Shown here: piece by piece, positions 9,946 to 25,679 of the stretch
How the letters are laid out: each line of letters starts with the position of its first letter
Numbering within the stretch: the stretch's first letter is position 1
DNA from: Hymenobacter monticola
GTDB lineage: Bacteria; Bacteroidota; Bacteroidia; Cytophagales; Hymenobacteraceae
Length of the DNA stretch: 64,000 nt
Reading direction: 5' to 3'
NCBI RefSeq assembly: GCF_022811645.1
Contig: NZ_CP094534.1
Span: 4,650,001 to 4,714,000, forward strand
Made by a program: the position numbers and the translations under genes
Notes under the pieces: model-generated
What the model saw: only the letters and a program-made list of their open reading frames with translations
The model's database searches: none
What the model was told of the DNA's origin: nothing

Positions 9946-9969
9946 ACTAACAGTGGGTTTAAGTGTCCT

Positions 9970-10000
9970 CAAACTTACCATTAATATTAGCAAATAGCAA
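9970..10000 (-). promoter_or_regulatory. promoter of the CBASS operon
   Basis: On the minus strand: TTG (9998-10000), 20-bp spacer, TAAGTTTG (9970-9977). This is an exact match to TTG-N20-TAnnTTTG. It would start transcription near 9963 and give a short leader before the cdnE ATG at 9945. A strong constitutive-looking promoter suits a sensor that must be present before infection. Confidence 0.65.
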
Positions 10001-10234
10001 AGAATTTTTGCTAAAAAAATGCACAAGGCAACTTGACACCCTTCTTAATCTGCAAGAAAGAAGGGCACCTGTACTTGCATGATAAAGACCAGTAGCAAGC
10101 TTCTAGCGTGAGCACCAAAATCACAAAACAGCGGCTCACCTACTCGTTTCCTTGTATGTCAATAACAACAGCTTTCTTAATGACTAGGATGGCGTGCTGT
10201 AAGTCTGAAATAGCCCATTGCTGACTTTCACAGA

Positions 10235-10274
10235 GCCCTTCTAAAATAGATGGACTAATCTATTTTAGAAGGGC
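10235..10274 (-). terminator. perfect 16-bp inverted repeat after the Abi_C gene
   Basis: Arms GCCCTTCTAAAATAGA (10235-10250) and its exact complement (10259-10274) around an 8-base loop, 11 bp downstream of the Abi_C stop. It probably ends the long array that reads leftward into this point. No T-tract follows on the minus strand, so it is not a textbook intrinsic terminator and may instead protect the mRNA end. The surrounding 10,001-10,284 contains no gene. Confidence 0.5.
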
Positions 10275-10284
10275 CCTACCTTGT

Positions 10285-11058
10285 CTAAATGCCTTCTATA
10301 GACTCTACAAACTTCATTAGAGCAGAAATATTTCTAAAAATCAAAAAGCTTTCCTCCCGATTAAGAGTTTTATTGTCATGAGCTAAGCTTTGATTATTTC
10401 TCACATAATTGAATTTTGACAAAAGGCTAATTGAAGATTTCAAAATAAGTTCGGACATATCTGATTTGATTAAGGAAGCTGCCTGCAAAGCTTTGACATA
10501 CTTACCAAATACGCTATTCAATGGCTCATCCCTGTCAGCAGCAATGCCACGCTTTTCGCACAGGTGGCGAAAGTATTTCATCAGATAGGTATGCAGTCGG
10601 TCAAGTCCCGCTTCTGGCTGGCCATTTTCAATGTTGTCCTTGATTTGGCTGGCTAGCAACTGGAAGTTCTCGTCTTTGGCAATTACTTGAGCAGTTTCAA
10701 TGTGTTCTACATCCGTCCTGCCTTTTAGACGCTCACTTATTTGACAAGCCTCTTCGTAAGCTTTTTGCTCGACTTCTGATATTTCAGCCCCAGCATCATC
10801 CTTACGATACTTCCAATAGCCGAGCATGTCGTGAGTAAGCTTGCCTACTACCTGGTCAGATTCCTTGGCCCAGAACGAACGAAGTCTATTTGCTTTGGAA
10901 CCGGAGTTTAGATTATATTTTTCGTCTTGAATATCAAGCTTAACGCTATCCAATGCGAAGGCTTGAAAGGATTTATCCGAGAAGTCTAATACAAAGCCAT
11001 TAGCCATGTTAAAGGCTTTTTCCAGCTTGTGTTTATCCAGAGGAGTTAATGACGACAT
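10285..11058 (-). CDS. abortive infection C-terminal (Abi_C) family protein
   Basis: A 257-residue protein. The C-terminal ~90 residues fit the Abi_C domain: YFRHLCEKRG, then LNSVFGKYVKAL, and the conserved block FNYVRNNQSLAHDN followed by an aromatic-rich helix. The RNN...HDN pattern is reminiscent of HEPN-like R-x4-6-H active sites, so RNase activity is possible but unproven. The N-terminal part is a charged helical region of unknown role. Codon use is clearly more AT-rich than its neighbours, suggesting separate acquisition. It follows the SNF2 gene by 57 bp on the same strand and is the last gene of the array. Confidence 0.7.
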   Translation of the reverse strand: MSSLTPLDKHKLEKAFNMANGFVLDFSDKSFQAFALDSVKLDIQDEKYNLNSGSKANRLRSFWAKESDQVVGKLTHDMLGYWKYRKDDAGAEISEVEQKAYEEACQISERLKGRTDVEHIETAQVIAKDENFQLLASQIKDNIENGQPEAGLDRLHTYLMKYFRHLCEKRGIAADRDEPLNSVFGKYVKALQAASLIKSDMSELILKSSISLLSKFNYVRNNQSLAHDNKTLNREESFLIFRNISALMKFVESIEGI

Positions 11059-11115
11059 TGTTAAAGGCCTTGTGTTTAATGCATAAGACTAAGCATCGCG
11101 AATCACTAAATCGGT

Positions 11116-14100
11116 CTAAGCCAATGCAGCATCGAGAGTGACATTGCTTAGGCTGAAGTCTTTCCGGCGCAGGGCTTTGATTTTTTCCTGTTGGTGCAAG
11201 AGCAGCTGCTGGAAGTTGGGGTTGCCGTCGCTTAAGGAGATGGAGCGGGCGGCACCGGCTTTCCAGTCGGCTCGGAACAGGTCTTCGGGAAGTACTTGCT
11301 CGCCGCTGGGCAGGGCGACAAATGCGCAGACGGGGTACTGCTCCGTGCGCTCTTGGGAGCCAGTGGCCAGAATAGTGGATACTTGGGCGGTGACGAGGGC
11401 AAGGACCTGCGCATTCTTTCCAGCGAGAGTCATGGGCAGCGGAGCGGCAAAACCCGTTTGGCCGCCGAACTGAGCCTTGCGGCAGAGCTCCACCAACTCA
11501 TTGAAGAATGTATTGCCGAAGCCGAAGTATTCGAACTTCTCACCGAGTTTAGCATCGGCGACCCTGCCCTGTTCGAACGTAAAGGCGCGGTCTTGGTAGA
11601 GGCTGGCGCTTATTCCGAAGTCACGGCTAACGGATTCAGGCAGTGTGAAGGTGTGAACGTTCTGGTTATGGTCGTGGTGCATGCTGCCTCCTAATGCTTC
11701 GGCCATGGTGATAGCAAAAAGCTGCAGATACTGCACCTCGGGTGAGGCGTAGAACCCGGCCATGTCTTTTACCAGGTCGCGCACTTCGGTGCCCACGCTG
11801 CGTGCCAAGTAGTCGTTTTCGGCGGTGACCATCTTGATGGCCTCGTTGATGCGGCCCAGGGCCTGCTCTACCCGCTTTTCTCTCAGGCTGTCGTTCAGCT
11901 CGCTGATGATGTTTTCGAACTCCCCACCCTTTTCTTCTTGAACGGCGCCGAGGACGCGCATTTTTAAGTCGTACACCAGGGCGTCGCGGAGCTGCTCGGG
12001 GACGTGCTGGAAGGTGACGGTGAGCAAATAATTGCGGACCATCTCATCCACACGCTCGTCGAGGCGCTGCATCACGCGCTGGTCGGAAATGGCGTTCATG
12101 ACGTAAAAATTGATAACCGTCACGTCTTTCTCTTGCCCGTAGCGCCATACCCGACCAATGCGCTGCTGCAGGCGCGAGGGGTTCCAGGGCATGTCGAAGT
12201 TGATGATTTTGTGGGCGAACTGTAAGTTGATGCCTTCACCACCGGCTTCGGTGGAAATCATGAAACGCACCTTGTTTTTGAACTTGCTGACCTCGCGCTG
12301 CCGGTCTTCGATGGAGATGGCGCCTTGAATTTCGGCAGTGTGCTCCCGACCGCCTAAGGCCTCACGCAGCACCTCCAGCGTTTTGACGAACTGGGTGAAG
12401 ATGATGAATTTGCTGTCTTGGTGCTCGGGTTCGTTTACCAGCTCCTTGAGGCGGTCGACCTTAGTATCAATCTTCTGCTTCTCCAGACCAGCGCCTACAG
12501 CGACAATCGCGCGCAGGCTTTCGGCTTCTCCTTTGAAATACTCATCGGAGCTCATTTGCTTGATGAGCTTCTGGATGTCGCGTTCTTCGCGCTCGTCCTT
12601 GAGCGTTTCATCGTCTTTGTCGTCGTAGAAGGCGTCGATGGGGGGAATTTCTCCGGAGTCTTCGGCAGCTTGCATCATGCGGTACTGCAGGCGTGCGCGC
12701 ATGGAACGCAGTACGTTTTTCCAGCTTGAAGCAAGCATTTTCCGGTAGATACCGGATACGAAGCCAATTTGCACGGCTAGCTTGCCTTGGGCCCGTTGCT
12801 GGGCCTGGTGCAGGCGCTCGATGTAGGCCACTACCAGCTCGCAGAATTCTAGTTCGGGGGCAGACAGCTCGACTTTTTCGGCTTTGGCCATTACGTCGCG
12901 GAACAAGGGAGTGCCTTTGAAGTCGGTGACGCTAAGCTTGTCGTTGCGGTAAACGAACTCCTGCAATATTTCGGGCTGGCTGATGCGCTCGTGCGCCAGG
13001 GGGCGGTCATTGGTAGGGAAGCGGGCTTGGTCGAGCAGGTGCAGCAAGTTGATGAACTTGTTGCGGTCGCCGCTGTGGGGCGTGGCGGAGAGCAGAAGCA
13101 GTTTGTTGATTTTTTCAGCTTTGCGCATGTCGCGCAACAGCTTCCACAACTGAACAGCATCGTTGGAGGCACGGTGGCACTCGTCGACAATAACCAAATC
13201 GTAGGGCGCCATGTGGCGCATGATGGCATCTTCCATGTCGCCTACCACGGCGGCGAAGTAAGAGGCAATAAGGAGGTTGCAGCCCTGGGAACCATTGCTG
13301 AAAGCCTCGGCGCCGGGGATGGTATCATGCTTCCAAACGCGGAAGTTGAGGCCAAACTTCTCTCGCAATTCCAGCAGCCACTGTGCTTTCAAGCTGGCGG
13401 GTACGAGGATGAGAACCCGGGCCTTGTCGCCCAAGCGGCGCACCACGTCTTTGATGATGAGGCCGGCTTCGATGGTTTTGCCTAGTCCCACGTCATCGGC
13501 TAGGAGCAGGTTGCCGTCGCTCTCCGCGCTGATGAATTTTTTGAGTGCCAGCAGCTGGTGGGGCACCGGACGAATACGGTAATCTTCGAACTCCCCGGTG
13601 AGGCAGTTCTGGGCGTAGAGGTAGTTGCCAAGAAAGCGGGCTTTCACTTTAGCCAGCGCGGCACCTTGGCCCGAAGCCAAAAGAGTGAGCGGGTCGACAA
13701 CTCGGGTCAGGTCGGCGAGCTTAACCACGACGATGGCGTCGTTGAAGATGACGCGGGCATTTTCACCGTCAATCTTAAAGATTTCGCCGCGGCCTTGGTC
13801 GGGGTGGTTTACGGCATCACCGGGTTGTAGATTTTCCATATTCTGAAAGGTTTGGGCTTTCTGCCAGCTGTTTTCAGCAGCGTTGACCATGAGGGCAAGG
13901 TGGGGGTCGTCGGTGGTGCCGGTTTGAATGACTAGGGGTGACTCGGTGTTGCGATGCAGCCAGGCGTTGGCGGTGAAGTTGGCGCTGCCGGAGAAGACAA
14001 CGGTGTTGCCGTTGGTGAGGTAGAACACATATAGCTTGGTATGCATGATGCCCTCGCCTTCGGGGCCCGAGCTGGTACGGAACTGCCCCACGGCCTCAAT

Positions 14101-14598
14101 CTTGCCCCGGATGCGGCCGCGGGTGTAGACGTTGCTGTTAAAGCTGTAGTCGGAAACGACACGAACCCCGAAGCCATAGGTACGACTGAGCTGATTCAGC
14201 TCTTCGCTCATGTACTCGTCGACGTAGGCCACACTGAGCAAGACCTCCCGGCTTTGGCTGGCGTATTTTTTAAATAGCGCCAAGCTGGGGGCCGGCTCGT
14301 TGACGGTTTGCATTTTGTAACTGCGGTTGGTGGCGGCGGTAGGAGAATTGTCTAGCTCAAAGATGAGCATATCGGTCTTGGCCAGGGTGCTCCACTCCCA
14401 CCCGTCGGTGTGCTGGCGGGTGCGCACTTGGATGCCCCGGGCAAACAGCAGCTCGTCGAATTGGGACATAAAAGCCGTGGTGCGATTGCTGCGTCCGAAG
14501 CGAGACAGCAGGGTATTTAGCTGCATGCGGACCCCTTGGGTGGGTGCGGCAAGAAGTTGACTGTGCAGCTCGTCAACAAATGTTTCGGGGGCGGCCAT
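11116..14598 (-). CDS. PLD-nuclease/SNF2 helicase fusion protein
   Basis: An 1160-residue protein. Residues ~110-230 form a phospholipase-D-like nuclease domain with HTKLYVF and GSANFT (one HKD half-site; a dimer would complete it). A SNF2/superfamily-II helicase follows: Walker A DDVGLGKT (~365), DEAH-box variant DECH (~475), LLLSATPHSGD, and a helicase C lobe with FTQF, STEAGGEGINLQ and QRIGRVWRYGQ. The C-terminal ~300 residues are unassigned. Such helicase-nuclease proteins are common in defence islands (compare DrmD/DrmC of DISARM, ZorD of Zorya), where they process foreign DNA. It sits 32 bp downstream of the YidD-like gene and 57 bp before Abi_C, on the same strand as the type I RM genes. 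Confidence 0.88.
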   Translation of the reverse strand: MAAPETFVDELHSQLLAAPTQGVRMQLNTLLSRFGRSNRTTAFMSQFDELLFARGIQVRTRQHTDGWEWSTLAKTDMLIFELDNSPTAATNRSYKMQTVNEPAPSLALFKKYASQSREVLLSVAYVDEYMSEELNQLSRTYGFGVRVVSDYSFNSNVYTRGRIRGKIEAVGQFRTSSGPEGEGIMHTKLYVFYLTNGNTVVFSGSANFTANAWLHRNTESPLVIQTGTTDDPHLALMVNAAENSWQKAQTFQNMENLQPGDAVNHPDQGRGEIFKIDGENARVIFNDAIVVVKLADLTRVVDPLTLLASGQGAALAKVKARFLGNYLYAQNCLTGEFEDYRIRPVPHQLLALKKFISAESDGNLLLADDVGLGKTIEAGLIIKDVVRRLGDKARVLILVPASLKAQWLLELREKFGLNFRVWKHDTIPGAEAFSNGSQGCNLLIASYFAAVVGDMEDAIMRHMAPYDLVIVDECHRASNDAVQLWKLLRDMRKAEKINKLLLLSATPHSGDRNKFINLLHLLDQARFPTNDRPLAHERISQPEILQEFVYRNDKLSVTDFKGTPLFRDVMAKAEKVELSAPELEFCELVVAYIERLHQAQQRAQGKLAVQIGFVSGIYRKMLASSWKNVLRSMRARLQYRMMQAAEDSGEIPPIDAFYDDKDDETLKDEREERDIQKLIKQMSSDEYFKGEAESLRAIVAVGAGLEKQKIDTKVDRLKELVNEPEHQDSKFIIFTQFVKTLEVLREALGGREHTAEIQGAISIEDRQREVSKFKNKVRFMISTEAGGEGINLQFAHKIINFDMPWNPSRLQQRIGRVWRYGQEKDVTVINFYVMNAISDQRVMQRLDERVDEMVRNYLLTVTFQHVPEQLRDALVYDLKMRVLGAVQEEKGGEFENIISELNDSLREKRVEQALGRINEAIKMVTAENDYLARSVGTEVRDLVKDMAGFYASPEVQYLQLFAITMAEALGGSMHHDHNQNVHTFTLPESVSRDFGISASLYQDRAFTFEQGRVADAKLGEKFEYFGFGNTFFNELVELCRKAQFGGQTGFAAPLPMTLAGKNAQVLALVTAQVSTILATGSQERTEQYPVCAFVALPSGEQVLPEDLFRADWKAGAARSISLSDGNPNFQQLLLHQQEKIKALRRKDFSLSNVTLDAALA

Positions 14599-14630
14599 GG
14601 AGCATAAAAGTGTTAAAGTGGAGCGTAGAA

Positions 14631-14903
14631 TTAGCAGACCTTACGGGCGGCTTCGGCAGCAGGAATTTGGGTGCCGTCGGGAAGCTGCAGAAGCCACTGG
14701 CCGGTGATGGGATGGTGGAAGGCGTAGGCTCCTGGGCGGCATTTTTGGGTGCGGTGCTGCAGGGCTTGGATTCCGGCCATCAGACCATGCCGGCGGGTGC
14801 GGAGGTAGACGTGCCGGGAACAGCTGACGCGAAACAGACACTGGCGCCGATGAGCAGACGGCCACACCCACCAGTAGAGCTTGATTAACCAGAGGAGCGG
14901 CAA
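14631..14903 (-). CDS. YidD-like membrane protein insertion efficiency factor
   Basis: A 90-residue protein starting with TTG (14903). The core CLFRVSCSRHVY, RRHGLMAGIQAL and a later KCRPGAYAFH match the YidD (DUF37) family, in which the two Cys blocks and the xxHGxxxG helix are conserved. YidD normally helps YidC insert membrane proteins and sits beside rpmH/rnpA/yidC. Here it is embedded between a DUF4177-like gene (11 bp upstream) and the SNF2 gene (32 bp downstream), away from that context. It could serve insertion of the multi-pass and anchored proteins encoded upstream; that is inference. Confidence 0.7.
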   Translation of the reverse strand: MPLLWLIKLYWWVWPSAHRRQCLFRVSCSRHVYLRTRRHGLMAGIQALQHRTQKCRPGAYAFHHPITGQWLLQLPDGTQIPAAEAARKVC

Positions 14904-14914
14904 ACCAGGTAGAA

Positions 14915-15151
14915 TTAAGCAGGCTGGCTTTGGAAGACGACCATGGAGACGGACGTGTTGGTGGCGGGAGTCGCGCCGAGGCCAAAGCAGCCGTTGGTGC
15001 CGGCTCGGGTGGTGTAGACGCGCTCGATGCGAACGTAGTACCAGCCACTGGCGGCGTATTGGGTGACGAGTTGCTCTAGCTGGGCAGCGGCGTGCTCGGC
15101 CGTTTCGCTATTGCCGATAGAAGCGGTGAAGGGGACGACTTTGTATTGCAT
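14915..15151 (-). CDS. small DUF4177-like protein
   Basis: A 78-residue protein: YKVVPF at the start, an AAAQLEQLVTQYAASGW helix, a YVRIERV strand, GCFG, and a final MVVFQ strand. This beta-alpha-beta-beta layout resembles DUF4177/GW-type small proteins. Function is unknown. It lies between the PLD gene (43 bp) and the YidD-like gene (11 bp), so it is part of the same transcript. Confidence 0.55.
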   Translation of the reverse strand: MQYKVVPFTASIGNSETAEHAAAQLEQLVTQYAASGWYYVRIERVYTTRAGTNGCFGLGATPATNTSVSMVVFQSQPA

Positions 15152-15194
15152 GTAGCTTTTAAATCAAATAGGCGGAGAGATGGCGAAGAATTGA

Positions 15195-16253
15195 TTAGCG
15201 GGAAGCCAGAATGGGGTTGCGCTTGCTGGTGCGGCCGTTGGTGGGGTTGCCGGTGAGGTGGCAGTAGCGCTCGGGGTAGTCTTCGTTGCCGAACTCAGCC
15301 CACTTTTTGTATGCGGAATAACTGAATGGACGGTCGGGGTTGAAAGCAATGGTGGCTCCGGTGCGGATGCAATACCCTTGTTCCGGCTTGGAAGAGGCCG
15401 GTTCGCGGTGGAAATTGGATGGCGCGGTGGGGCGAGCTACCGGAGCCTGATAGGTTTCGCGCCGCTGGTAGGGCTGGCTTACAGAGGGCGCTGGCGCCGT
15501 GGGGGGTGCGAATGGCGCCGGCGCCGGCTCGGCAACGAATGCAGGCTGGGGCGCTAGGCGGGCTTCGACTTCTTGGCGGCTGGGGCGCACCTGGGCCAAC
15601 GTTTGGCTAAACTCAACCTCTTTGGGTAGGCTGGAGAGGCGGCAGCTTTTGTATGGGCGGTTGTGGAGCACCTCCTCGATGGCGTCGAAGACGATGGTGG
15701 GCTCCAGGTGGTCTTTGCCGCCCACTATCTTGGACATGAAGCCGGTGCGCATTTTGAAGACGGGGCGCTTGGCGAAGATGACATCGTGGGAATTGGCCAC
15801 AAGCATGGCCTGCTCAAAAGCTTGGTCTTCGAGGCTTTTGCGGTTGATGGTTTCGAGCAGCTTCTCCATGATAGGGGCATTCTCGCTGTAGACCCCGAAC
15901 TCAATGTTGTTGCGGAAAGAGTAGTCGTAGAGGTTGATGGAGGTGACCACGCCTTTTACCTCGTTGCCGTAGTACTTGGCGTGAAGGTTGGGAGCATAGA
16001 TGACCGTGACGTTGGGGAATTTGGTGAAGTAATCTAGGTCGGTGCGGCTGACGCTGCGGGTGATGTTGCCCTCGTTTTTGCCGAATACCACGATGAGCTC
16101 CAGCTCGGGATTGTGGGCGTGGCGGTCGAGTATTTCGCGGAAGTAATTATCCAGCTTGATGTAGGGGGAGACCAGTAATAGCTGGCGCTTGGCTTCGAAC
16201 AGGATGTCGTAAACGACTTCTTCGAGTTCTTTGCCGGTAACGAACTTGGACAT
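15195..16253 (-). CDS. phospholipase D-like nuclease family protein with Cys-containing C-terminal domain
   Basis: A 352-residue protein from the ATG at 16253 (MSKFVTGKEL). Residues ~1-160 are PLD-like: LLVSPYIKLDNYFREIL, then NLHAKYYG with the HxK motif and TSINLYDYS. A proline/alanine-rich linker (~225-285) leads to a C-terminal region of about 60 residues with GYCIRTG and ERYCHLTG, a likely paired-Cys or zinc-binding unit. The single HxK site implies a homodimeric active centre as in Nuc-type enzymes. It is the second PLD protein of this array, besides the PLD-SNF2 fusion. Confidence 0.75.
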   Translation of the reverse strand: MSKFVTGKELEEVVYDILFEAKRQLLLVSPYIKLDNYFREILDRHAHNPELELIVVFGKNEGNITRSVSRTDLDYFTKFPNVTVIYAPNLHAKYYGNEVKGVVTSINLYDYSFRNNIEFGVYSENAPIMEKLLETINRKSLEDQAFEQAMLVANSHDVIFAKRPVFKMRTGFMSKIVGGKDHLEPTIVFDAIEEVLHNRPYKSCRLSSLPKEVEFSQTLAQVRPSRQEVEARLAPQPAFVAEPAPAPFAPPTAPAPSVSQPYQRRETYQAPVARPTAPSNFHREPASSKPEQGYCIRTGATIAFNPDRPFSYSAYKKWAEFGNEDYPERYCHLTGNPTNGRTSKRNPILASR

Positions 16254-16350
16254 TGGGATTTGGTGAAAAAATGGGTAGATAGCACTACTTGGCAGCAAGC
16301 TGCCGGTATTTGACTCGGGGTAGCCAATGAGTAGTAGGCAAAAAGGGAAG

Positions 16351-16947
16351 CTACTCCTCAGTTTCGGTGACAGCTTCGTCGCGGCGGCGCTGCTCTTCTT
16401 CGCGTTGCTGGGCTTGACGCTGTTCCTCCTCTTCTTCCTCCTGGCGTACTTGCCGGCGGTGGTCCTCGTCCTCCTGCTGCACGCGGGCTTCTTCGGTGGC
16501 ATTGGCTTGGAGTTGGTCTTCGTGCTCCTGCACCACATCGGCTTCGCCGGTGGCGTCGGAATCGGTGGAGCAGGAACCTTCCTCGCCTTGGATGCGCACA
16601 GTGTAGTCGGCGCCTACGTCGCTAGTGAAACTGGCGTCGCCGTCCTCGATGTCGGGGCCGTTGTAGTGGGTTTCATCGAGCCAGCCGCCGTTGGGCCAGT
16701 GGATTTTGACCAGGTGGTTGTCTTCGACGTCGACGAGGAGGGTGTAGGTGGAATTGGTGCCGGTGGGCGAATAGTAGTAGGTGACCTCGGCACAGTAGGT
16801 ACCATCGGCGTAGCCGCTTGATGGGGAGGAGTCTTCCGCTTCAGCGCTTTCGTCGGAATCGGCGGAGGCGTTGGAGCAACTGCTAAAAGATAGAGAAGCA
16901 GCTAAGGCAAACCCTAGCGCGGGCAGGTAGAGGTGGCGCATGAGCAT
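16351..16947 (-). CDS. predicted lipoprotein with charged coiled-coil tail
   Basis: A 198-residue protein from the ATG at 16947; a longer in-frame start at 17022 would overlap the upstream gene. The N-terminus is a lipoprotein signal ending FSSC (Cys about residue 22-24). A compact domain of ~75 residues follows (YCAEVTYYYSPTG, then VEDNHLVKIHWPNGGWLD), a beta-rich fold not recognised. The C-terminal ~75 residues are Glu/Gln/Arg-rich and would form a long helix. The family is unknown. Its place in the array, after two membrane-protein genes, suggests an envelope component. Confidence 0.65.
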   Translation of the reverse strand: MLMRHLYLPALGFALAASLSFSSCSNASADSDESAEAEDSSPSSGYADGTYCAEVTYYYSPTGTNSTYTLLVDVEDNHLVKIHWPNGGWLDETHYNGPDIEDGDASFTSDVGADYTVRIQGEEGSCSTDSDATGEADVVQEHEDQLQANATEEARVQQEDEDHRRQVRQEEEEEEQRQAQQREEEQRRRDEAVTETEE

Positions 16948-17005
16948 GGTAATGAAAGCATGAGGTGGCTTCCTCCGCGTATTTACAGAGTCAGGACAAC
17001 TAAGG

Positions 17006-17968
17006 CTATTTGAGGGCTGCAACAGCTTTAGGCCCGGAAGCAGGCGCGTTCATCATGTCCAGCACTGCTTTCTCAATGATACCAGGAGGCACGTTGTTGA
17101 GCAGCAACTTATAGTGTTCGGCGGGGATGCCCATCTCCTGAAACCACTTGTTCCAATACCGAAGAATTAACTGCTCGTGCGTGGCGTCGTTGCCGTGAGG
17201 GGCTAATTCTAACACAACTACCCGCAAATCGGGGTATTTCTGGCTGGCCATCATCCCGTAGTTTTCCCTGTCGAACGTACCGATGGGGTCGGGCTTGTGA
17301 GAGAGCGTATTGACCTGGCCGTAGGAGGTGCGGTTGCCACTAAAAGGCCGTTTTTTGAGAATATCGACGGAGAAGTCGTTGTACCCGTCGGTAACAATAA
17401 CCAGCGTTTGCACCACACTGTCCAGCGGGGCTTTCTTGCCCGTGAGCAGGTACATTGGCAGCTCGGTTTCGAAGAAGCTCCAGATGTCAGCACCAGTATA
17501 GCCTTGCTGGGCCGCCTGGGCCTGGGTTTGAGAATAGAGCTGTACCGTTTGTTGCAAGAGCGAATCGGTGAGGCTTTCTACGCGCTTTTGCTGCTTGTTA
17601 TTGAGGGGCAAGGCGGCCATATCCACCATGAAATCGGCCTGGTGGTTGGATTGCGCATCGGACGTACTGCCTCGTTGGCGGGACACCAGTACCGAAAGCT
17701 GGTCGCGAGAGTTAACGTAGAAGTTGTGCTTGACCTGCTGCTTGAATACTTCTGTCACTGCTTTAATATCCTGCAGGTCGCGCACGGCCTGAGGGCCGCG
17801 GCCCAACTTTGGGTCGATACGGTTGGACAAGTCGAGCAGGACCGTGATGTGATGCTGGGCTACGGCCTTGGGAGGGGGCGGCGGCGGGGTAGTGTAAACA
17901 AGGGCCATGACCGCACCAATGAATACCACTACCGCCAGCGTCATGAGTAAAATAAACTTCTTATTCAT
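17006..17968 (-). CDS. membrane-anchored von Willebrand factor A-like protein
   Basis: A 320-residue protein. One N-terminal transmembrane helix (about residues 5-27), a run of seven prolines, then a vWA-like Rossmann domain starting ITVLLDLSNRID with Asp46 and later LVIVTDGYND. The MIDAS site is only partial (Asp-Leu-Ser-Asn instead of Asp-x-Ser-x-Ser), so metal-dependent ligand binding is uncertain. The domain faces the periplasm by topology rules. It lies 12 bp after the coiled-coil membrane gene. No specific family was recognised; a sensing or scaffolding role is inference. Confidence 0.65.
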   Translation of the reverse strand: MNKKFILLMTLAVVVFIGAVMALVYTTPPPPPPKAVAQHHITVLLDLSNRIDPKLGRGPQAVRDLQDIKAVTEVFKQQVKHNFYVNSRDQLSVLVSRQRGSTSDAQSNHQADFMVDMAALPLNNKQQKRVESLTDSLLQQTVQLYSQTQAQAAQQGYTGADIWSFFETELPMYLLTGKKAPLDSVVQTLVIVTDGYNDFSVDILKKRPFSGNRTSYGQVNTLSHKPDPIGTFDRENYGMMASQKYPDLRVVVLELAPHGNDATHEQLILRYWNKWFQEMGIPAEHYKLLLNNVPPGIIEKAVLDMMNAPASGPKAVAALK

Positions 17969-17980
17969 ACAGCTATGCTC

Positions 17981-19240
17981 TTAGAGGGCACTCGGCTTGA
18001 GTTGCTTTTGGACTTGTTGTAAATATTCTTTGACAAGGTCCGTAGCCTCGTCCTGCCGTTCCTTAACACGCATTTGCGTGCCGCTAATGAACTCCAGCCA
18101 GCCTTTGGTGAATTGGGCTATTTCGCCTTCAAACTCGGACCACATGATGGTTTTTTGGCTGAGACTGGATTCCAGCTTTTTGATAAGGGCAAGGTTGGCG
18201 TCAAGCTTGGTGCGCAACTCTTCGAGCTTTTCGCGCCACTGCTGAATCTCGGCGGTGAGTTGGTCAATCTTGCGCTTGCGGCGGCGGATGGCTGCTTGAA
18301 TGGGCTGGGAGTTCTTGGCCTGCTCGGCTACAGAATTAACCATGAGGCCCCAGAGGATGTACACCAGAAAGCCCGCTGCCAATACTATCCAAAAGTCGAT
18401 GTCGCTGAGGAGCTGGGAGGTGTGCCAAGGCTCGGTGGCAACGCCCGTTTTGAGTTTTAGGTCGTAGAGGTTGTAAGTGATTTTGCCGGCGAGGAGGGCA
18501 TCGAAGCCGAAGGCGCCTAAGGTGAGGGCCGTCGCCATCAGCATGTTTTTGCGCTGAAATGCCTTGTGAATCATGTAGCCAAGGCTTAGAAACACAAAGG
18601 GAATGAGCAGCACCAAGGGCAGCGTTAGGCCGCCTTGCTCGCGGGCATGCAAAAAGGCTTTGGGGTCGAAAACGTTACTGAACAGCACCGACATATCGCC
18701 GTTTTGCTGCAGGGCTTGCAAGTCCTGCGCAGCATTGCGGAAGAAGGCGGAATAGCTGGTTGAAACGTAAAAAACAATCAGGTAAAGAGTGAGGAAAATC
18801 AGAAACAGTGAGCTGATGGCAAACTCAAACTGGCTAAATTCGTCGTTCTCTAGCTCGTACTTTTTTGGGTTGCCAGGAATTTCATCAATCTCGTCTTTGA
18901 GTTGCTGAATCTGCTCTTGGCGAGACTGTATTTCTTCGTTTTCGATAAGGGCGACCTGGCGTATTAGGGGCTCGTTGGCTTCGGTGAGCTCCGCAATTTT
19001 GCCGCGGTACTCCGCTGCCCGGGTGCCGAGGCGGCTGACGTGCTCTTGGTGGAGCATGGTCAGGTTAACGGTAAGGGCTTGGGGCGCGGCATCAGACTTG
19101 CCGGCGGCTTGGAAGCCACGGTTGCGCAATGCGGCTTCGTCGGTGCCAAGCTTGGAATCGGTGGCGGCGAGCAATTCGTCCAGATTGTCGGGGGAGTCGA
19201 CGCCGGGTGCTTTGCCTTTGGAGGAAGTAAAAATATCCAT
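17981..19240 (-). CDS. four-helix membrane protein with two coiled coils
   Basis: A 419-residue protein from the ATG at 19240 (MDIFTSSKGK); an earlier in-frame start at 19318 would add 26 residues. The first ~140 residues are soluble, with a coiled coil (HVSRLGTRAAEYRGKIAEL through QQLKDEIDEI). Four predicted membrane helices follow: SSLFLIFLTLYLIVFYV, PLVLLIPFVFLSLGYMI, MATALTLGAFGFDALLA and FWIVLAAGFLVYILWGLMV. The C-terminal ~120 residues are another long coiled coil. The design recalls membrane sensors with cytoplasmic coiled-coil tails (ZorA-like logic), but I see no sequence kinship. The family is not recognised. Confidence 0.7.
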   Translation of the reverse strand: MDIFTSSKGKAPGVDSPDNLDELLAATDSKLGTDEAALRNRGFQAAGKSDAAPQALTVNLTMLHQEHVSRLGTRAAEYRGKIAELTEANEPLIRQVALIENEEIQSRQEQIQQLKDEIDEIPGNPKKYELENDEFSQFEFAISSLFLIFLTLYLIVFYVSTSYSAFFRNAAQDLQALQQNGDMSVLFSNVFDPKAFLHAREQGGLTLPLVLLIPFVFLSLGYMIHKAFQRKNMLMATALTLGAFGFDALLAGKITYNLYDLKLKTGVATEPWHTSQLLSDIDFWIVLAAGFLVYILWGLMVNSVAEQAKNSQPIQAAIRRRKRKIDQLTAEIQQWREKLEELRTKLDANLALIKKLESSLSQKTIMWSEFEGEIAQFTKGWLEFISGTQMRVKERQDEATDLVKEYLQQVQKQLKPSAL

Positions 19241-19338
19241 GCAGTAACAGGTAATGAGTGAGAGAAAATCTGATTGAAGAGCAATGAAGTGCTTGCCGGA
19301 AGTAATTCCGACCGGCACATCGTTGCCGGAGCTAGGCG

Positions 19339-19977
19339 CTAGAGGCCAAGCCCGTTTTTGTAGTTTTCCATCTCCTTTTTCAGGGCGTTGAGCTTCCTGG
19401 TGAAGGTTTTTTGGATGGAGTTTTTCTCCTTCTCCAATTTGGAGGCGGGGTCGAGGCTTTCCTTCCGGTAAAACACGGTGACGGCGTTGCGGGAGGCGTT
19501 GCCTTTGTGCTGGAGGAAGTGGACGTAGGTTTTGTTGTAGAGGTCGTTGAGGGAGGCACCGAACACGGGCTCGAACACGCTGAGTGAGCGGTTGGTATTT
19601 TCCGTCAACTCACAGGCGCAGTCGTAGAGGTAGAGGTCGGTTTCGTCCTTCCAGTGACTGCAGTTGTAGAGGTACAGGTCTTCGAGCAGCTGGGCGGCAA
19701 AGACGTGCTTCTTGTTTTGGAGACCGAAGTAGAGGATGGTGCCGGCTTTGGCTAGCAGCCACTCTTTGCGGAAGTGGTGTTGATGCTTCACTTCAGCCAG
19801 CATTTCCTCGCTGCTGCGGTAGTGCTCGGGCTTGAGGCCGATGGGGCGCAGCTGGCGAAAGCCCCCTTCCTGGGCAACCAGGCACACCTGCGTGCCCTCG
19901 TGCAGCTCGATGCGTTGGTTGTCGCGGGTGTCGTAGAAATGGCCTTGCCGGAATACAGCATTACGGGTTTCGAACAT
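19339..19977 (-). CDS. uncharacterised protein between hsdS and the membrane module
   Basis: A 212-residue soluble protein of no family I recognise. It is rich in aromatic and His residues, with YLYNCSHW and LYLYDCACEL suggesting paired Cys in a beta-rich core, and a Lys-rich helical C-terminus. It lies 46 bp after the hsdS stop and 98 bp before the coiled-coil membrane gene. It is therefore the junction between the restriction operon and the membrane module and could couple them. Confidence 0.55.
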   Translation of the reverse strand: MFETRNAVFRQGHFYDTRDNQRIELHEGTQVCLVAQEGGFRQLRPIGLKPEHYRSSEEMLAEVKHQHHFRKEWLLAKAGTILYFGLQNKKHVFAAQLLEDLYLYNCSHWKDETDLYLYDCACELTENTNRSLSVFEPVFGASLNDLYNKTYVHFLQHKGNASRNAVTVFYRKESLDPASKLEKEKNSIQKTFTRKLNALKKEMENYKNGLGL

Positions 19978-20023
19978 GGTTGCAGAAGAAAGGAGGATGG
20001 GAGGACGAAGCAGCTAGGGGATA

Positions 20024-21694
20024 CTACTCGTCAAATTGGATAGCATCGAACAGGTCGGGCGGCGCGTTTTCTAGGGTGAATGCAGGTCGGCGCGGGCGGC
20101 CCCGCTTGGCCTTGGGCGGGGCTGAAGTTTCAGCTTCGGCCAGCTCCAGTTCGGCTTCTTCGGCGGGCTCGGTGCCGACAGGCGGGGCCAGGGCCTCGCG
20201 CAGGGCGGTTTGGAGCAGTTGCTCGGCCAGCCGGCGGCTCTCGCGGATGCGCTGCTCCAATGCGTCGCAGTGCTGCATAAGCTGCTCTAGTTTTGATACG
20301 ATGCGGCGCTGCTCAGCTAGTGGAGGCAGGGGTATCAGAAGCTTATTTAGAATTCGGTGGTTCAGGTTGTTCATTGTTGAACCGACCGAAGCGCTTAGTA
20401 AGTAATTTTTAGAATATTCAGACCTAAACACTCTTACAAAATACTCGTTGTCAATGAGTTTATTGAGTTTCATGAAAAAGGAGCCGGTTCCACATAACCA
20501 GCCATCTTCTTTATCAGTAACGATAGCGCAGCGGCCCATTTCGCCTCTTCTTGCTGCTACAATATCTCCTGCATCCAGTATATAGCTAGTCAATCTTTTC
20601 TTGGTATCTGGAGTAACCGTCATCTTCTCTGAAGGGACAATTTTGCCCTCCACGATATTCATTGGATTAACCAATGGTATCCCGCCAAAAACGTAATCAT
20701 GCTTATGTAGCATGGAGCCAAATGGGCCTGTTGAAGCAGAAACCATAAGTTCCTTAAGCTCACACCATGCCCAATTCGCGGGGATTTCAAACGGTCCTTC
20801 CACCGCTTCTACCTCTTCCTCAAACAAGGCACCAGCCTTGCCCTTTTTCCCCGTTGCTGCCTTAGCCGCTTGCAGCTTCTTCAGCAGCAGGGCGGCGGGT
20901 TCGTCGGTGGGGTCTTGGGGGAGTAGTTGGCCTTGCATGGCCTCGCGTAGCAGGGCTTGGCGGAGCTGGGTGAGGTGGACGATTTGCTGGTCGTGTTCTT
21001 CATCAATGCCTTTTAGATTTTGGCACAGTTGATAGGCATTGAAAAGCACTTGACTTTCAAGCAGGTTTTCTCCTTTTACTAAGGCTTCGAAATCTTCTAC
21101 CAGTTGTTGCTGCTCAAGCAGAGTGGATGGCAATGGAACCTCGATGCTCAAAAAGCCTTTGGTGTCAAGGTTACGTAGTCCGGTTGTTGTTTTCTGCGTG
21201 TCAAACTTCCAAGCAAGAGCTTGTGGCGACTTTAAAAACAAGTCCAAATACGCCGGCCAAATACGCTTCTGGTCCGGACGCAACACCAATAAGAAATTGG
21301 AGGCAATGACGTAAGGAAAGGAGGAATCTGATTTGAAAACTTGGCTTTTACCAACCAAATCAAGACTGCCATTTGATTTTATGACAACAACGTCGTTGTC
21401 CATCAAATTGAAGTTGTCAATCTCCTTTTGCGTGAAGCAACGCTCCTCCGCTTTCTCAAAATCGATAAACCCAAATCTGATATCAGGGCTTCTCAACACT
21501 TTTGCATTAATGCCTCCGTCAAAATAGTCGCTCCCCCAAGAACCACCTTTCGATTCGGTAAGGAGATTTCGAAGCGGTTTAGCTGGGTATTTCCGACGTA
21601 ATTCGTCGAAAAACATCGTCTTCAAGAATGGAATGGTATTGCCTTCACGCTTGCGTAAAGCGTCAAACGCTCTTGTAACAGCTATACGATTCAT
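20024..21694 (-). CDS. hsdS: type I restriction-modification specificity subunit HsdS
   Basis: A 556-residue protein with the two-TRD layout: TRD1 (~1-190), a central conserved helix (LRQALLREAMQGQLLPQD), TRD2 beginning IPANWAWCELKEL, and a C-terminal conserved region (PPLAEQRRIVSKLEQLM, then SRRLAEQLLQTALREAL). It sets the target sequence of the HsdR2M2S complex. Both TRDs are more AT-rich than the conserved helices, which is normal for exchangeable specificity modules. The ATG overlaps the hsdM stop as ATGA. A charged C-terminal tail (~40 residues, Glu/Ala and Arg-rich) is an extra feature. Confidence 0.93.
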   Translation of the reverse strand: MNRIAVTRAFDALRKREGNTIPFLKTMFFDELRRKYPAKPLRNLLTESKGGSWGSDYFDGGINAKVLRSPDIRFGFIDFEKAEERCFTQKEIDNFNLMDNDVVVIKSNGSLDLVGKSQVFKSDSSFPYVIASNFLLVLRPDQKRIWPAYLDLFLKSPQALAWKFDTQKTTTGLRNLDTKGFLSIEVPLPSTLLEQQQLVEDFEALVKGENLLESQVLFNAYQLCQNLKGIDEEHDQQIVHLTQLRQALLREAMQGQLLPQDPTDEPAALLLKKLQAAKAATGKKGKAGALFEEEVEAVEGPFEIPANWAWCELKELMVSASTGPFGSMLHKHDYVFGGIPLVNPMNIVEGKIVPSEKMTVTPDTKKRLTSYILDAGDIVAARRGEMGRCAIVTDKEDGWLCGTGSFFMKLNKLIDNEYFVRVFRSEYSKNYLLSASVGSTMNNLNHRILNKLLIPLPPLAEQRRIVSKLEQLMQHCDALEQRIRESRRLAEQLLQTALREALAPPVGTEPAEEAELELAEAETSAPPKAKRGRPRRPAFTLENAPPDLFDAIQFDE

Positions 21695-23112
21695 ACCAAC
21701 TCCCCTTTCAACGCATTCAACAACGCCTCACTCTTCGAAAAGCTCTGGCCCAACAACTCAATCAGCTCGGCGCTGGTGTATTCGTGCGCTTCCTCGACCT
21801 GGTGCGGATTCTTAATATCTAGGTCGTAGTTGCGGTCAATAATTGTTTGAATAGGTACGCGCCAGGCCACTTCGCTCTCCTCGCGGTTTTTCCACCACGC
21901 CTCAAGGGGCTGAAACTCGTCTCGGCGAATGGTTTTGGTTTTGGAGTAGGACTTCTGGCCCTCGGGCAGGCGGTGCTGGTAGTACCAGATTTCCTTGGTG
22001 GGCGTGCCCTTGGTGAAGAACAGCAGGTTGGTGGCCACCGTGGCGTATGGCTGGAACACGGAGTTGGGCAGGCGCACGATGGTGTGCAGGTTGCAGTCTT
22101 CGAGCAGCTTTTGGCGCACCCGCTGCTTCACGCCCTCGCCGGTGAGGGAGCCATCGGGCAGCACTACGCCGGCGCGGCCGCCGTCCTTGAGCAGGTGCAT
22201 GATGAGGACAAGGAAGAGGTCGGCCGATTCCTTGGTGCGGAAGTTGGCGGGGAAGTTGGCTTCGTTGCCGTTGGCCACCACGCCGCCGAAGGGCGGGTTG
22301 GCGAGCACCACGTCGACCCGGTCTTTCTGGGAGTAGGCGCTCAGGGACTGGTCGAGCACGTCGCGGAAGGTAATGTTGGGCACCTCCACGTCGTGCAGAA
22401 TGAGGTTGGTGGTGGCCAGTAGGAACGGCAGGGGCTTGTACTCCCACCCTTTCACCTTCTGGAGCTCCTGCTGGTCGGCCACGGAGGTAGCCTGGCTTTT
22501 GAGGGTTTCGACAGCGGAGGTGAGGAAGCCACCGGTGCCGCAGGCGGGGTCGAGGATGGTTTCGCCGAGCTTGGGAGCCAGGATGTCGCAGATGAAGTTC
22601 GTGACAGCACGGGGCGTGTAGAACTCGCCGCTTTTGCCGGCGCTTTGCAGGCCCTTGAGGATGCTCTCGTAGATGTCGCCAAAGGCGTGGCGGTCTTTAG
22701 CGCGGTTGAAGTCAATTTCGTTGAGCTTGTTGAGCACCTTGCGCAGGTTGCCGCCCGACTTCATGTAGTTGTTGTTGCCCGAGAATACTTCGCGCACGAT
22801 GAGGGCACGGCGGTTGCCGGTGCTTACGTCGAGACCGCGCAGGGCGGGAAACAGGTCGCGGTCGATGAATTCGAGTAGGGCGTCGCCGGTCATGCCTTCG
22901 TCGTCGGCAGCCCAGGCGTCCCAACGGTACTCGGCGGGAATGGGCGACTGGTATGCGTCGTCCATGAGCTCGAGCTCCTGGTCTTTGTCGGAGAAAATCT
23001 TGAAAAACAGCATCCAGGCGAACTGCTCGATGCGCTGGGCGTCACCGTTGAGGCCGGTGTCCTGCCACATGATTTTCTCGATGGATTTATAGAGCGATGA
23101 AAGGTTAGACAT
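21691..23112 (-). CDS. hsdM: type I restriction-modification methyltransferase HsdM
   Basis: A 473-residue N6-adenine methyltransferase. The N-terminal HsdM_N helical domain (IEKIMWQDTGLNGDAQRIEQ) is followed by a SAM-binding motif I DPACGTGGFL and catalytic NPPFGG. FYTPRAVTNFICDIL precedes motif I as usual. Length and motifs fit the type IB (EcoAI/EcoEI-like) branch. It methylates the host sites and is the core of both the modification and restriction complexes. It is translationally coupled to hsdS, with hsdR 119 bp upstream. Confidence 0.95.
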   Translation of the reverse strand: MSNLSSLYKSIEKIMWQDTGLNGDAQRIEQFAWMLFFKIFSDKDQELELMDDAYQSPIPAEYRWDAWAADDEGMTGDALLEFIDRDLFPALRGLDVSTGNRRALIVREVFSGNNNYMKSGGNLRKVLNKLNEIDFNRAKDRHAFGDIYESILKGLQSAGKSGEFYTPRAVTNFICDILAPKLGETILDPACGTGGFLTSAVETLKSQATSVADQQELQKVKGWEYKPLPFLLATTNLILHDVEVPNITFRDVLDQSLSAYSQKDRVDVVLANPPFGGVVANGNEANFPANFRTKESADLFLVLIMHLLKDGGRAGVVLPDGSLTGEGVKQRVRQKLLEDCNLHTIVRLPNSVFQPYATVATNLLFFTKGTPTKEIWYYQHRLPEGQKSYSKTKTIRRDEFQPLEAWWKNREESEVAWRVPIQTIIDRNYDLDIKNPHQVEEAHEYTSAELIELLGQSFSKSEALLNALKGELV

Positions 23113-23231
23113 TCAGGGGAAAGTGTAAATAATTCTTAAAATGGTGCGAATAAGCAGAACAGGCTGCCAATGTATGCAGCTCGCGCTTTACATGCACTAT
23201 GGTGCAAAAAAATCAGACGGGTGTGAGGATT

Positions 23232-25679
23232 TTAGGCGGAGCGGTATAGCTCTTGCTCCAGCTCTTGGATGGCTTGCTGGTACTTGGTTTTGCCGCCGAA
23301 GCCTTTCACAATCTCAACGGGCGAACCAAGCTGGGTGAGCGGGTACACTTTCAGTACCTCCATGCTTTCAAGCTCCTCCAGGCCCTTGTCGGCGTACTTC
23401 TCGGACAGGGCTTCGAGAACCTTGCGGGCCTGGTCGCCATACTTGGTGAAGTAGTTGCGCTTCTTCACGTTGTTGAGCCGCTCTTTACGGGTGAGCGGGG
23501 GCTGGTCGTAGGCGACGTGGCAAATGAGGTCGAACAGGTCGACGTCGTGACTGACCGAGGCCTGCAGCTTTTCGACGGGGACGCCCTGCTCCTCCAGCTC
23601 CTGCAGGATGGCAGCTTTGCGGTCGGTGGCCTGCCAAGTGGTGAGGAACTCCTCGAGCGTAGGGAACTGCTCTTTTATCTGCTGGCGGGCGTAGTCGGTG
23701 AGCTTTACTGTAATGGGCTTGCCGTGTTGGTCGAAGTGCATCTCGCGCTCCATGAGCACGGACACGTCCACGTTGTTGACGTAGATTTTGTAGGCGGGCG
23801 GCGGAGGCGGATTGGGGCCGCCTCCACCGGGCTGGCGGATTCTGGGGCCATCGGGGCCAAGCTGGTCGTCCTCTTCTTCCTCGTCCTCCACTTCCGGGAA
23901 ATCAACTACCTCACCGGTTTCGATATCAATTACGGGCTGGTCATCATCTTCCTCCCCTCCTTCTCCAGCACCTTCGGGTTCGAGGTCGTCATCTTCGTCA
24001 ACTTCCTTGATGCGGATGGGGTCGCCGTCGAAATCAGGGTCGGCGAAGAGGTTGGTGGCCTGGCGGAAATCGAGGATGGTGAAGAACATCTTACCGTACT
24101 CCTCGTTGATGCGGGTGCCCCGGCCGATGATTTGCTTGAACTTGGTCATCGAGTTGATGTTGCTGTCGAGCACAATCAACTGGCAGGTTTGCGCGTCGAC
24201 GCCGGTGGTCATCAGCTCGGAAGTGGTGACGATGACGGGGTATTTCTGCTCGGGGTCGATGAAGTTGTCGAGCTCCTTTTTGCCGATTTCGTTGTCGCCC
24301 GTGATGCGCATGACGTAGCGGTGGTCGGCTTTTACCAGGTCGGGGTTCTCGTTGACGAGGGCCTTGCGCATGCGCTCGGCGTGGTCGATGTCGACGCAGA
24401 ACACAATGGTTTTGGCTAGACGATTAAAGCCCTTGAGAAACTCGGACACCTTGCGGGCCACCAGCTGGGTGCGTTCCTCGATAACAAGCTTACGGTCGAA
24501 GTCCTTGAGGTTGTAGATTTGGTCTACCACCTCCTGGCCGTGGACGTCGGTTTTGCCGGCTTCGGGACGCCAGCCGTCGAAGTCGACGTTCATGCCGATG
24601 CGCACCACTTTATAGGGAGCTAGGAAGCCGTCGTCGATGCCCTGCTTAAGGGAGTAAGTGTAGAGCGGGTCGCCGAAGTACTCGATGTTGCTGACTTCGG
24701 TGGTTTCGCGTGGGGTGGCGGTGAGGCCGATTTGGGATGCCTTCTTGAAGTAGCGCAGAATCTCGCGCCAGTTGCTGTCTTCGCGGGCGCTACCGCGGTG
24801 GCACTCGTCGACGATGATGAGGTCGAAGAAGTCCTCGCTGAACTGCTTGTAGATGTTGCTGGCTTCTTCGGAGCCGGACAGGCCCTGGTAGAGGGCCAGG
24901 TAGATTTCGTAGCTTTTGTCGACCTGGTGGTTCTGGACCACGGTCATCTTGTCTTTGAAGTGCTTGAAGTCGCCGCGCCGGGTTTGGTCGATGAGGGCGT
25001 TGCGGTCAGCCAGGAACAGGATGCGCTTTTTGGCACCCGATTTCCAGAGGCGGTGCACGATTTGAAAGGCTGTGTAGGTCTTGCCAGTGCCGGTGGCCAT
25101 TACCAGCAGAATGCGGTCCTGGCCTTTGGCAATGGCCTCAATGGTGCGGTTGATGGCAATTTGCTGGTAGTAGCGCGGGCGTCGGCCGCTGCCGTCGGAG
25201 TAGTACGCCTGTTCGGCCATTTTGGCGGCCAGTGGGGACTCCAGGCCCTTGTACTTCTTGTATTTAGCCCACAGCACTTCGGGCGAGGGAAATTCATCGA
25301 GAGCCAAAGAGGTTTCGAGGGGGCCTTCGGTGACAGTTTTATCGTGGAATGCAAAGCCGTCGCCATTGGAGCTGAACACGAAGGGCAAGTCGAGGATGGC
25401 CGCGTAGTCCATGGCCTGCTGCATGCCCGAGCTGACGGAGTGCTTGTTGTCCTTGGCCTCCACCACCGCCATGGGGATGTTGGGCTTGTAGTAGAGGATG
25501 TAGTCGGCGCGCTTGGCTTTGCCACGGGCAGTGAGCTTGCCTTTGACGTAGATTTTGCCGTCAGTGAAAGAGACTTCCTCCAGGAACTGGCTGAGCTTAT
25601 TCCAGCCAGCCTGTTCGAGCGCGGGGGTAATGAACTTGGTGCAGATGTCGCGCTCGGACATCTCTTTCTTGGCTAGCAT
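23232..25679 (-). CDS. hsdR: type I restriction endonuclease subunit HsdR
   Basis: A 815-residue protein from the ATG at 25679. The N-terminal nuclease site is PD-(D/E)XK-like (KRADYILYY, then AVVEAKDNK). A superfamily-II motor follows: GTGKTYTAF (Walker A), DECHRGS (motif II), GLTATPRET (motif III), and IIGRGTRINEEYGKMFFTIL (motif VI region). The length agrees with the EcoEI-type HsdR. Near residue 590-650 there is an unusual acidic stretch, many Glu/Asp followed by Gly/Pro repeats, that links the motor to the C-terminal HsdM-contacting domain. First gene of the twelve-gene array. Confidence 0.95.
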   Translation of the reverse strand: MLAKKEMSERDICTKFITPALEQAGWNKLSQFLEEVSFTDGKIYVKGKLTARGKAKRADYILYYKPNIPMAVVEAKDNKHSVSSGMQQAMDYAAILDLPFVFSSNGDGFAFHDKTVTEGPLETSLALDEFPSPEVLWAKYKKYKGLESPLAAKMAEQAYYSDGSGRRPRYYQQIAINRTIEAIAKGQDRILLVMATGTGKTYTAFQIVHRLWKSGAKKRILFLADRNALIDQTRRGDFKHFKDKMTVVQNHQVDKSYEIYLALYQGLSGSEEASNIYKQFSEDFFDLIIVDECHRGSAREDSNWREILRYFKKASQIGLTATPRETTEVSNIEYFGDPLYTYSLKQGIDDGFLAPYKVVRIGMNVDFDGWRPEAGKTDVHGQEVVDQIYNLKDFDRKLVIEERTQLVARKVSEFLKGFNRLAKTIVFCVDIDHAERMRKALVNENPDLVKADHRYVMRITGDNEIGKKELDNFIDPEQKYPVIVTTSELMTTGVDAQTCQLIVLDSNINSMTKFKQIIGRGTRINEEYGKMFFTILDFRQATNLFADPDFDGDPIRIKEVDEDDDLEPEGAGEGGEEDDDQPVIDIETGEVVDFPEVEDEEEEDDQLGPDGPRIRQPGGGGPNPPPPPAYKIYVNNVDVSVLMEREMHFDQHGKPITVKLTDYARQQIKEQFPTLEEFLTTWQATDRKAAILQELEEQGVPVEKLQASVSHDVDLFDLICHVAYDQPPLTRKERLNNVKKRNYFTKYGDQARKVLEALSEKYADKGLEELESMEVLKVYPLTQLGSPVEIVKGFGGKTKYQQAIQELEQELYRSA

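Follow-up and report, generated by a model that had tools for sequence, protein, structure and literature searches.

Does a close-set run of genes on one strand encode a single machine, or several lying end to end? We addressed this question in a window of 64,000 nucleotides from Hymenobacter monticola (contig NZ_CP094534.1, positions 4,650,001 to 4,714,000), where twelve genes lead from a type I restriction-modification (RM) operon, through an envelope module built on a coiled-coil membrane protein (CC) and a vWA protein, to a helicase gene with PLD and SNF2 domains. A preliminary description had offered a single system or a stack of two or three. Our results make it very likely that the array stacks several defence or conflict units, each with a distribution of its own, and is not one system. 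We count four or five of them, namely the type I RM operon, a 212-amino-acid (aa) accessory, the envelope module, a PLD gene and the PLD-SNF2/Abi_C pair, with a cyclic oligonucleotide-based antiphage signalling system (CBASS) as a separate unit beyond. As an explanation of the whole, we favour, with some reserve, this stack together with an envelope hub formed by CC and vWA. The features of the array, from hsdR onwards, are as follows.

23232..25679, minus strand: hsdR, type I restriction subunit, 815 aa (PADLOC REase_I, 1166 bits, residues 2-813)
21691..23112, minus strand: hsdM, type I methyltransferase subunit (TIGR00497, 77.5 bits, cut-off 242.75; synteny with hsdS)
20024..21694, minus strand: hsdS, specificity subunit (two Methylase_S stretches, 77.8 bits)
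19339..19977, minus strand: 212-aa protein, recurring accessory of RM and helicase clusters (relatives in 5 other genomes, 204 searched)
17981..19240, minus strand: CC, protein with four predicted transmembrane segments, an antiparallel coiled-coil stalk and an invariant Asp247 (model pLDDT 86.9)
17006..17968, minus strand: vWA protein with an N-terminal membrane anchor and conserved DLS(N/D)R and TDGY motifs (model pLDDT 85.8, Foldseek)
16351..16947, minus strand: putative lipoprotein (PG1828_fam_lipo, 16.7 of 50 bits)
15195..16253, minus strand: PLD-family protein, 352 aa, accessory of RM-type islands (PLDc_2, 22.2 of 27 bits; DrmC_I, 25.7 of 133 bits)
14915..15151, minus strand: DUF4177-like protein, 78 aa, of the envelope-module repertoire (DUF4177, 18.9 of 25 bits)
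14631..14903, minus strand: YidD-like protein, paired with the DUF4177-like one (above the TIGR00278 and Pfam YidD cut-offs)
11116..14598, minus strand: PLD-SNF2 helicase, 1160 aa (PLDc_2, SNF2-rel_dom and Helicase_C above cut-off)
10285..11058, minus strand: Abi_C protein (Abi_C, 33.6 bits, cut-off 24)
10230..10279, minus strand: hairpin 3' of the last array gene (-33.3 kcal/mol, z -6.4)

HsdR, HsdM and HsdS are encoded together, as in type I RM systems. HsdM scores below its TIGR00497 cut-off and owes its identity to its place between HsdR and HsdS, an arrangement kept in five relatives of the same genus: it is 86-92% identical to copies in five other genomes of the genus, each adjoining hsdS. 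HsdS aligns with its counterparts in these five genomes along only part of the protein, at 38-47% identity. At E<=1e-80, hsdM was detected in 18 of 185 same-family genomes, the source genome included, and only two of the 17 others carry the vWA gene (G169 and G176), at distant places. We examined the hsdRM loci of six of these 17, five from the same genus (G048, G093, G015, G069 and G119; 86-92% HsdM identity) and one from another genus (G006; 59%). In all six, hsdS is followed by other genes and by no CC/vWA pair. The order in G048 is hsdRMS, four other open reading frames (ORFs), a relative of the PLD gene and two more genes, McrBC-like by eye, and in G093 and G119 hsdS is followed by ORFs that look like the G048 ones, again by eye: one for an AAA-type protein, the other for a protein of ~190 aa.

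For the envelope module, 84,980 species genomes were scanned and 109 stretches were found to encode a vWA relative. The best 80 of these 109, minus 8 duplicates and with L031, L033, L034 and L011 added, led to a set of 84 module loci. Only four of them have a relative of this hsdM nearby (tblastn, E<=1e-3, 24-30% identity), and only one a relative of this SNF2 gene, over 192 residues. The co-occurrence of these genes had been set in advance as a test of the one-system reading, and the outcome went largely against that reading.

The SNF2, PLD and 212-aa genes are found elsewhere in other company. The SNF2 protein has an 82% identical relative in G021, where its neighbours are a 221-aa gene and another type I RM system. 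Relatives of the 352-aa PLD protein occur in 53 of 204 genomes, mostly as weak matches, and those that are 67-78% identical (in G017, G197, G048 and G126) all lie in genomes that lack the CC/vWA module. The 212-aa protein gave no Pfam, NCBIfam or PADLOC match; the four loci of its relatives that we examined are other clusters, with SNF2-like matches near three and an HsdM-like match near one. No relative of the lipoprotein was found in the 84 module loci. Since the parts recur with other partners and all six hsdRM loci lack the membrane genes, we conclude that several units are stacked here and that what comes after hsdS varies. In this genome that cargo slot holds the 212-aa accessory gene and the envelope module, a self-standing unit with which the lipoprotein gene and the PLD gene, the latter found elsewhere with RM-type genes, are interleaved. 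Of the two readings in the preliminary description, the single system is not supported, and the stack is, with more units than had been envisaged.

Two further observations concern loci of this kind. In three hsdRM relatives (L182, L253 and L256), the cargo 3' of hsdS includes an AAA-type protein and then a ~190-aa protein, by eye. UmuC/UmuD-like genes (by eye) lie beside defence clusters in three same-genus genomes (L031, L182 and L191), possibly marking an insertion hotspot.

The envelope module, noticed earlier as unrecognised, proved wider and more structured than it had first appeared. CC immediately adjoins vWA in 79 of the 84 loci and is fused to it in one (L011), the other four being cut by a contig end (L037, L054, L098 and L103); in L044 and L097, CC is split across two ORFs. 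A second set, made of 18 loci from 22 other matches in the phylum (four fragmented or edge ones omitted) and two same-genus matches, gave the same result in 20 of 20 loci. The alignments used in the genome scan drew on 11 loci of the same family plus a plasmid locus. By alignment search, the vWA gene is present in 23 of 395 Bacteroidota genomes, and further relatives come from records labelled Treponema, Acidobacteria, Elusimicrobiota, Ignavibacteria and Oligoflexales, where binning errors in metagenome-assembled genomes are possible. No published description of the pair was found in the literature searched, which lay largely outside subscription journals, and none of the PADLOC 2023 models names it. 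Two Cellulophaga baltica genomes (L061 and L064) carry the module, one beside Cas9; this species is a possible laboratory phage host.

In the structure model of CC, long helices at residues 53-120 and 313-361 flank four hydrophobic helices, and Asp247, in the third of these, is kept in 45 of 45 alignment rows, which have four hydrophobic segments. Positively charged stretches beside helix 2/3 and after helix 4 suggest that both ends of CC are cytoplasmic. Fold comparison gave no specific PDB match for CC. The vWA-like reading of its partner is supported by the structure model, whose top Foldseek matches are a TFIIH subunit, complement C2a and Ku chains (best E 4e-5). Its putative metal site has DxSxR in place of DxSxS and keeps TDG. 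Among vWA relatives, 53 of 83 carry a strict lipobox pattern, and most of the other 30 have an N-terminal Cys by eye. Neither CC nor vWA matched a CARF, SAVED or other nucleotide-sensing domain in Pfam, NCBIfam or PADLOC. In four loci (L033, L034, L114 and L239), a PLD-like domain, recognised by eye, is fused at the N-terminus of CC, with an HxK motif in three and none in L114; these fusions connect the stalk with a domain of nuclease type.

The company of the module was then read across the 84 loci. The most frequent neighbours are TerB (61 loci), a response regulator (44), a TPR-kinase (42), a staphylococcal nuclease (21) and an EEP nuclease (17), the last with an N-terminal hydrophobic segment in 16 of 17 cases and hence secreted-looking. 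Rarer ones are YidD (13), HSDR_N (8), McrB (5), HsdM-type proteins (5) and RtcR-like CARF-sigma54 proteins (3), and a Cas9 cluster is present in five loci, one verified by NCBIfam. Genes of clustered regularly interspaced short palindromic repeats (CRISPR) systems occur in six of the 84, mainly of type III: clearly so in L011, L076 and L113, with cas1 or other CRISPR genes in L035, L037 and L051. In L076, a single strand carries Csm-type genes, TIGR02221, a Csx20-like gene (below cut-off), two more genes, CC, vWA, an 85-aa gene, cas1 and a cas2-like gene. The fusion in L011 (10609-12723, Runella plasmid pSP2_2) is a CC-vWA protein of 704 aa, and the locus around it is annotated as type III-B CRISPR. 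Within the second set, Cas1 and a Csm6-type ring nuclease score above cut-off in L208, L209 has a Csx20-like gene below cut-off, and 9 of the 20 loci have an HSDR_N or EEP gene. As a separate observation, the RtcR-like CARF and sigma-54 activator gene adjoins CC/vWA in L033, L044 and L059; relatives of such proteins are said, in PMC4012209, to be associated with R-M systems.

We tentatively propose the following mechanism for the module, while holding it less probable than its negation. CC would be an inner-membrane protein whose two ends face the cytoplasm, where its antiparallel stalk would serve as an arm on which exchangeable partners dock: in most loci TerB, in four the PLD-like domain fused to CC, and elsewhere perhaps proteins of the CARF type. 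The four-helix bundle, with its buried invariant Asp, would relay a signal across the membrane, and vWA would be its partner outside the cytoplasm, where it would probably bind a ligand in a metal-dependent way. As a sensor/effector hub of the envelope, the module could connect infection, or damage to the envelope, with nucleases or with altered permeability of the membrane. It is possible, though we would not rely on it, that CC/vWA is a hitherto undescribed exchangeable envelope hub of prokaryotic immunity, a single membrane stalk with a periplasmic vWA partner, recruited repeatedly by type III CRISPR, RM, McrBC and two-component/nuclease loci for action at the cell envelope. What was observed is the gene order, the pairing, the recurrence and the DUF4177 linkage, as well as, in models, the vWA fold and the helix layout of CC; the topology, the docking, the direction of the signal, the defence role and co-transcription are inferred.

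Several observations bear on this proposal, most of them against it. The vWA protein of the window is a long branch with a plain anchor and no lipobox, and neither TerB nor two-component genes adjoin the module there. In its favour, compared with 20 random 13-kb regions from ten module-bearing genomes, the 20 loci of the second set contain TerB in 14 vs 0 cases, a response regulator in 11 vs 0, a TPR-kinase in 10 vs 0 and HSDR_N in 8 vs 0; because the profiles were built from the 84 loci, this comparison reflects recurrence and no independent enrichment. PADLOC matched 128 families among 130 of the 161 module-neighbour proteins and 24 among 130 of the 200 control proteins, but each family matched just one or two proteins per side, and an excess of defence proteins is therefore not established. 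The HSDR_N recurrence has a parallel in Pfam (E<=1e-5), with matches in 6 of the 130 module-neighbour proteins and none among the best 25 of the 156 control families listed. On the opposing side again, many of the 44 loci with a response regulator carry no labelled known defence gene, which fits a role in stress response too.

The most probable alternative makes CC/vWA a regulated system for envelope stress or for the handling of DNA or metals, with no antiphage role, that travels in islands as a passenger. The prevalence of response regulators, TPR-kinases and TerB, the secreted-looking EEP nucleases and the lack of a clear PADLOC excess all agree with it, whereas the repeated presence of the pair within CRISPR gene runs, the CC-vWA fusion in a plasmid-borne type III-B locus, the PLD-like fusions and the HSDR_N partners do not; we give it a serious but minority chance. 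Alternatively, CC could be a membrane-disrupting effector, whose four-helix bundle would open upon a cytoplasmic signal on the stalk, like the membrane effectors of type III CRISPR systems, among which Cam1 and Csx23 are described as depolarising in PMC11229360. An invariant Asp inside a hydrophobic helix and the type III company in L011, L076, L113 and L208 would suit such a function. Against it stand the absence of a detected nucleotide-sensing domain and of a specific PDB match for CC, and the obligate vWA partner, which has no counterpart in those effectors, and we regard it as rather unlikely.

If CC/vWA is an immune component, many Bacteroidota carry an envelope defence arm that goes unnamed in the PADLOC 2023 models. 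CRISPR, restriction and two-component systems would then have a membrane output or sensor in common, and the coupling of cytoplasmic recognition to the envelope would become testable. Even if it is not antiphage, the pair recurs as a two-gene system that has no name as yet and whose set of partners is clear.

Two further genes of the window, encoding the DUF4177-like and YidD-like proteins, lie between the PLD and SNF2 genes. Their relatives (34-53% identity for DUF4177) share the same 13 of the 84 module loci by tblastn. DUF4177 relatives were found in 6 of 395 genomes; one (in G574) is a weak match within a 1322-aa frame, leaving five credible cases, the source genome included. All five are among the 23 vWA-bearing genomes, with DUF4177 0.1-5.2 kb from vWA, a co-occurrence with a hypergeometric probability of 4e-7, or 7e-6 without the source genome, kinship between genomes being ignored. 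Given this linkage to vWA-bearing genomes, we assign DUF4177 and YidD to the module. It also bears on the idea of an ordinary defence island in which adjacency implies no functional link at all, even between DUF4177 and YidD. The CBASS, an HNH-like gene and other units nearby are what such an island would contain, but the CC/vWA pairing and the DUF4177 linkage are far from chance. The idea is refuted for those pairs and stands for the rest of the array; as an account of the whole it is improbable.

The layout of the array agrees with the preliminary description: all twelve ORFs were located on the minus strand, with gaps mostly below 100 bp. With the chosen starts (16253 for the PLD gene and 19240 for CC, the longest ORFs starting at 16538 and 19318), the gaps from hsdR to Abi_C are 119, -4, 46, 98, 12, 58, 97, 43, 11, 32 and 57 bp, a range of -4 to 119 bp. 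The single strong hairpin that closes the array was likewise recovered, and none of 200 shuffles equalled it; it has no T tract or U-tail and is not on the list of terminator-like matches. Bacteroidota-type promoters follow the pattern TTTG-N17-23-TAnnTTTG. No minus-strand match to this pattern lies within the array, and one promoter-like site was found at 10001-9970, ahead of the CD-NTase gene of the CBASS. Neither sigma-70-like matches (5 found, 7.5 expected) nor terminator-like matches (20 found, 21.3 expected) exceed shuffled sequences, and these pattern scans revealed no internal promoter or terminator dividing the array, so that the second test set for the one-system reading did not come into play. 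The twelve genes are possibly read as one transcript, although a single missing promoter pattern says little in favour of co-transcription. Half-sites of the form CCCTTCT/AGAAGGG recur in the strong hairpin, in a weaker second palindrome before the CD-NTase gene (10027-10284) and upstream of hsdR (~25735-25760).

One integrated twelve-gene system, in which RM would recognise DNA, the envelope genes sense entry, and PLD and SNF2 destroy or remodel DNA, draws on the common strand, short gaps, single end hairpin and lack of an internal promoter match, but is highly improbable in view of the six hsdRM loci without membrane genes, the lack of a relative of this hsdM or SNF2 beside the membrane genes in almost every one of the 84 loci, and the other partners of the SNF2, PLD and 212-aa relatives. 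The window cautions against taking a tight one-strand array for one machine.

Beyond the hairpin lies a complete CBASS (7890-10026), with a CD-NTase gene beside an effector gene that it overlaps by 17 bp.

8869..10026, minus strand: CD-NTase of the adjacent CBASS (PADLOC Cyclase, 283.7 bits; promoter-like site 10001-9970)
7890..8885, minus strand: TIR-STING effector (Cap12) of the CBASS (PDB 7un8, CD-NTase-associated protein 12, E 8e-90, residues 9-331)

How does this locus compare with known systems? The neighbouring CD-NTase and effector match a CBASS with TIR-STING (Cap12) in full, and stand apart from the array, as a unit past the hairpin that has a promoter-like site to itself. The array resembles type I RM systems in having hsdR, hsdM and hsdS in order, with a near-full-length REase_I match, but its operon is trailed by unrelated cargo that varies between relatives. 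The likeness to Zorya and to the defence island system associated with restriction-modification (DISARM), raised in the preliminary description, holds for the helicase only, and the curated cut-offs were missed. In Zorya, too, genes for membrane proteins lie close to one for an SNF2 helicase; membership was rejected at the curated cut-offs, the SNF2 protein scoring 56.8 bits on NF041790 (ZorD; cut-off 1500). CC has no MotA_ExbB (Pfam, E<=0.5) or ZorA (PADLOC, E<=0.01) match, and vWA no ZorB or OmpA-like match in Pfam, PADLOC or NCBIfam. The membrane part of Zorya contains a buried invariant acidic residue, and CC is like it by analogy. As in DISARM, methylase, SNF2 and PLD genes lie near one another; membership was rejected at the curated cut-off here too, with 279.3 bits for SNF2 on NF038317 (DrmD; cut-off 610). 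The array PLD protein reaches 25.7 bits against the DrmC_I cut-off of 133, the methylase belongs to the type I RM operon, and DrmB is not among the PADLOC matches listed for eight of the twelve array proteins (HsdM, HsdS, YidD and the lipoprotein being outside that scan). In its parts the module resembles Ter-type vWA/TerB systems and TerY-P triads: it combines vWA with TerB in most loci and is kept near restriction systems. PMC11090510 describes TerY-P with type IV restriction systems, and PMC10250203 presents Shango as an antiphage system containing TerB. The module differs in that its vWA is predicted to be extracytoplasmic and is paired with a four-transmembrane coiled-coil protein, with no kinase/phosphatase pair seen; beside the window pair there is no TerB, the gene before CC being that of the 212-aa protein, which has no TerB match in Pfam. 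Finally, like the type III CRISPR membrane effectors Cam1, Csx23 and CorA, CC is a membrane protein found inside type III loci; it differs from them in having no detected nucleotide-binding domain, in its obligate vWA partner and in occurring outside CRISPR loci as well.

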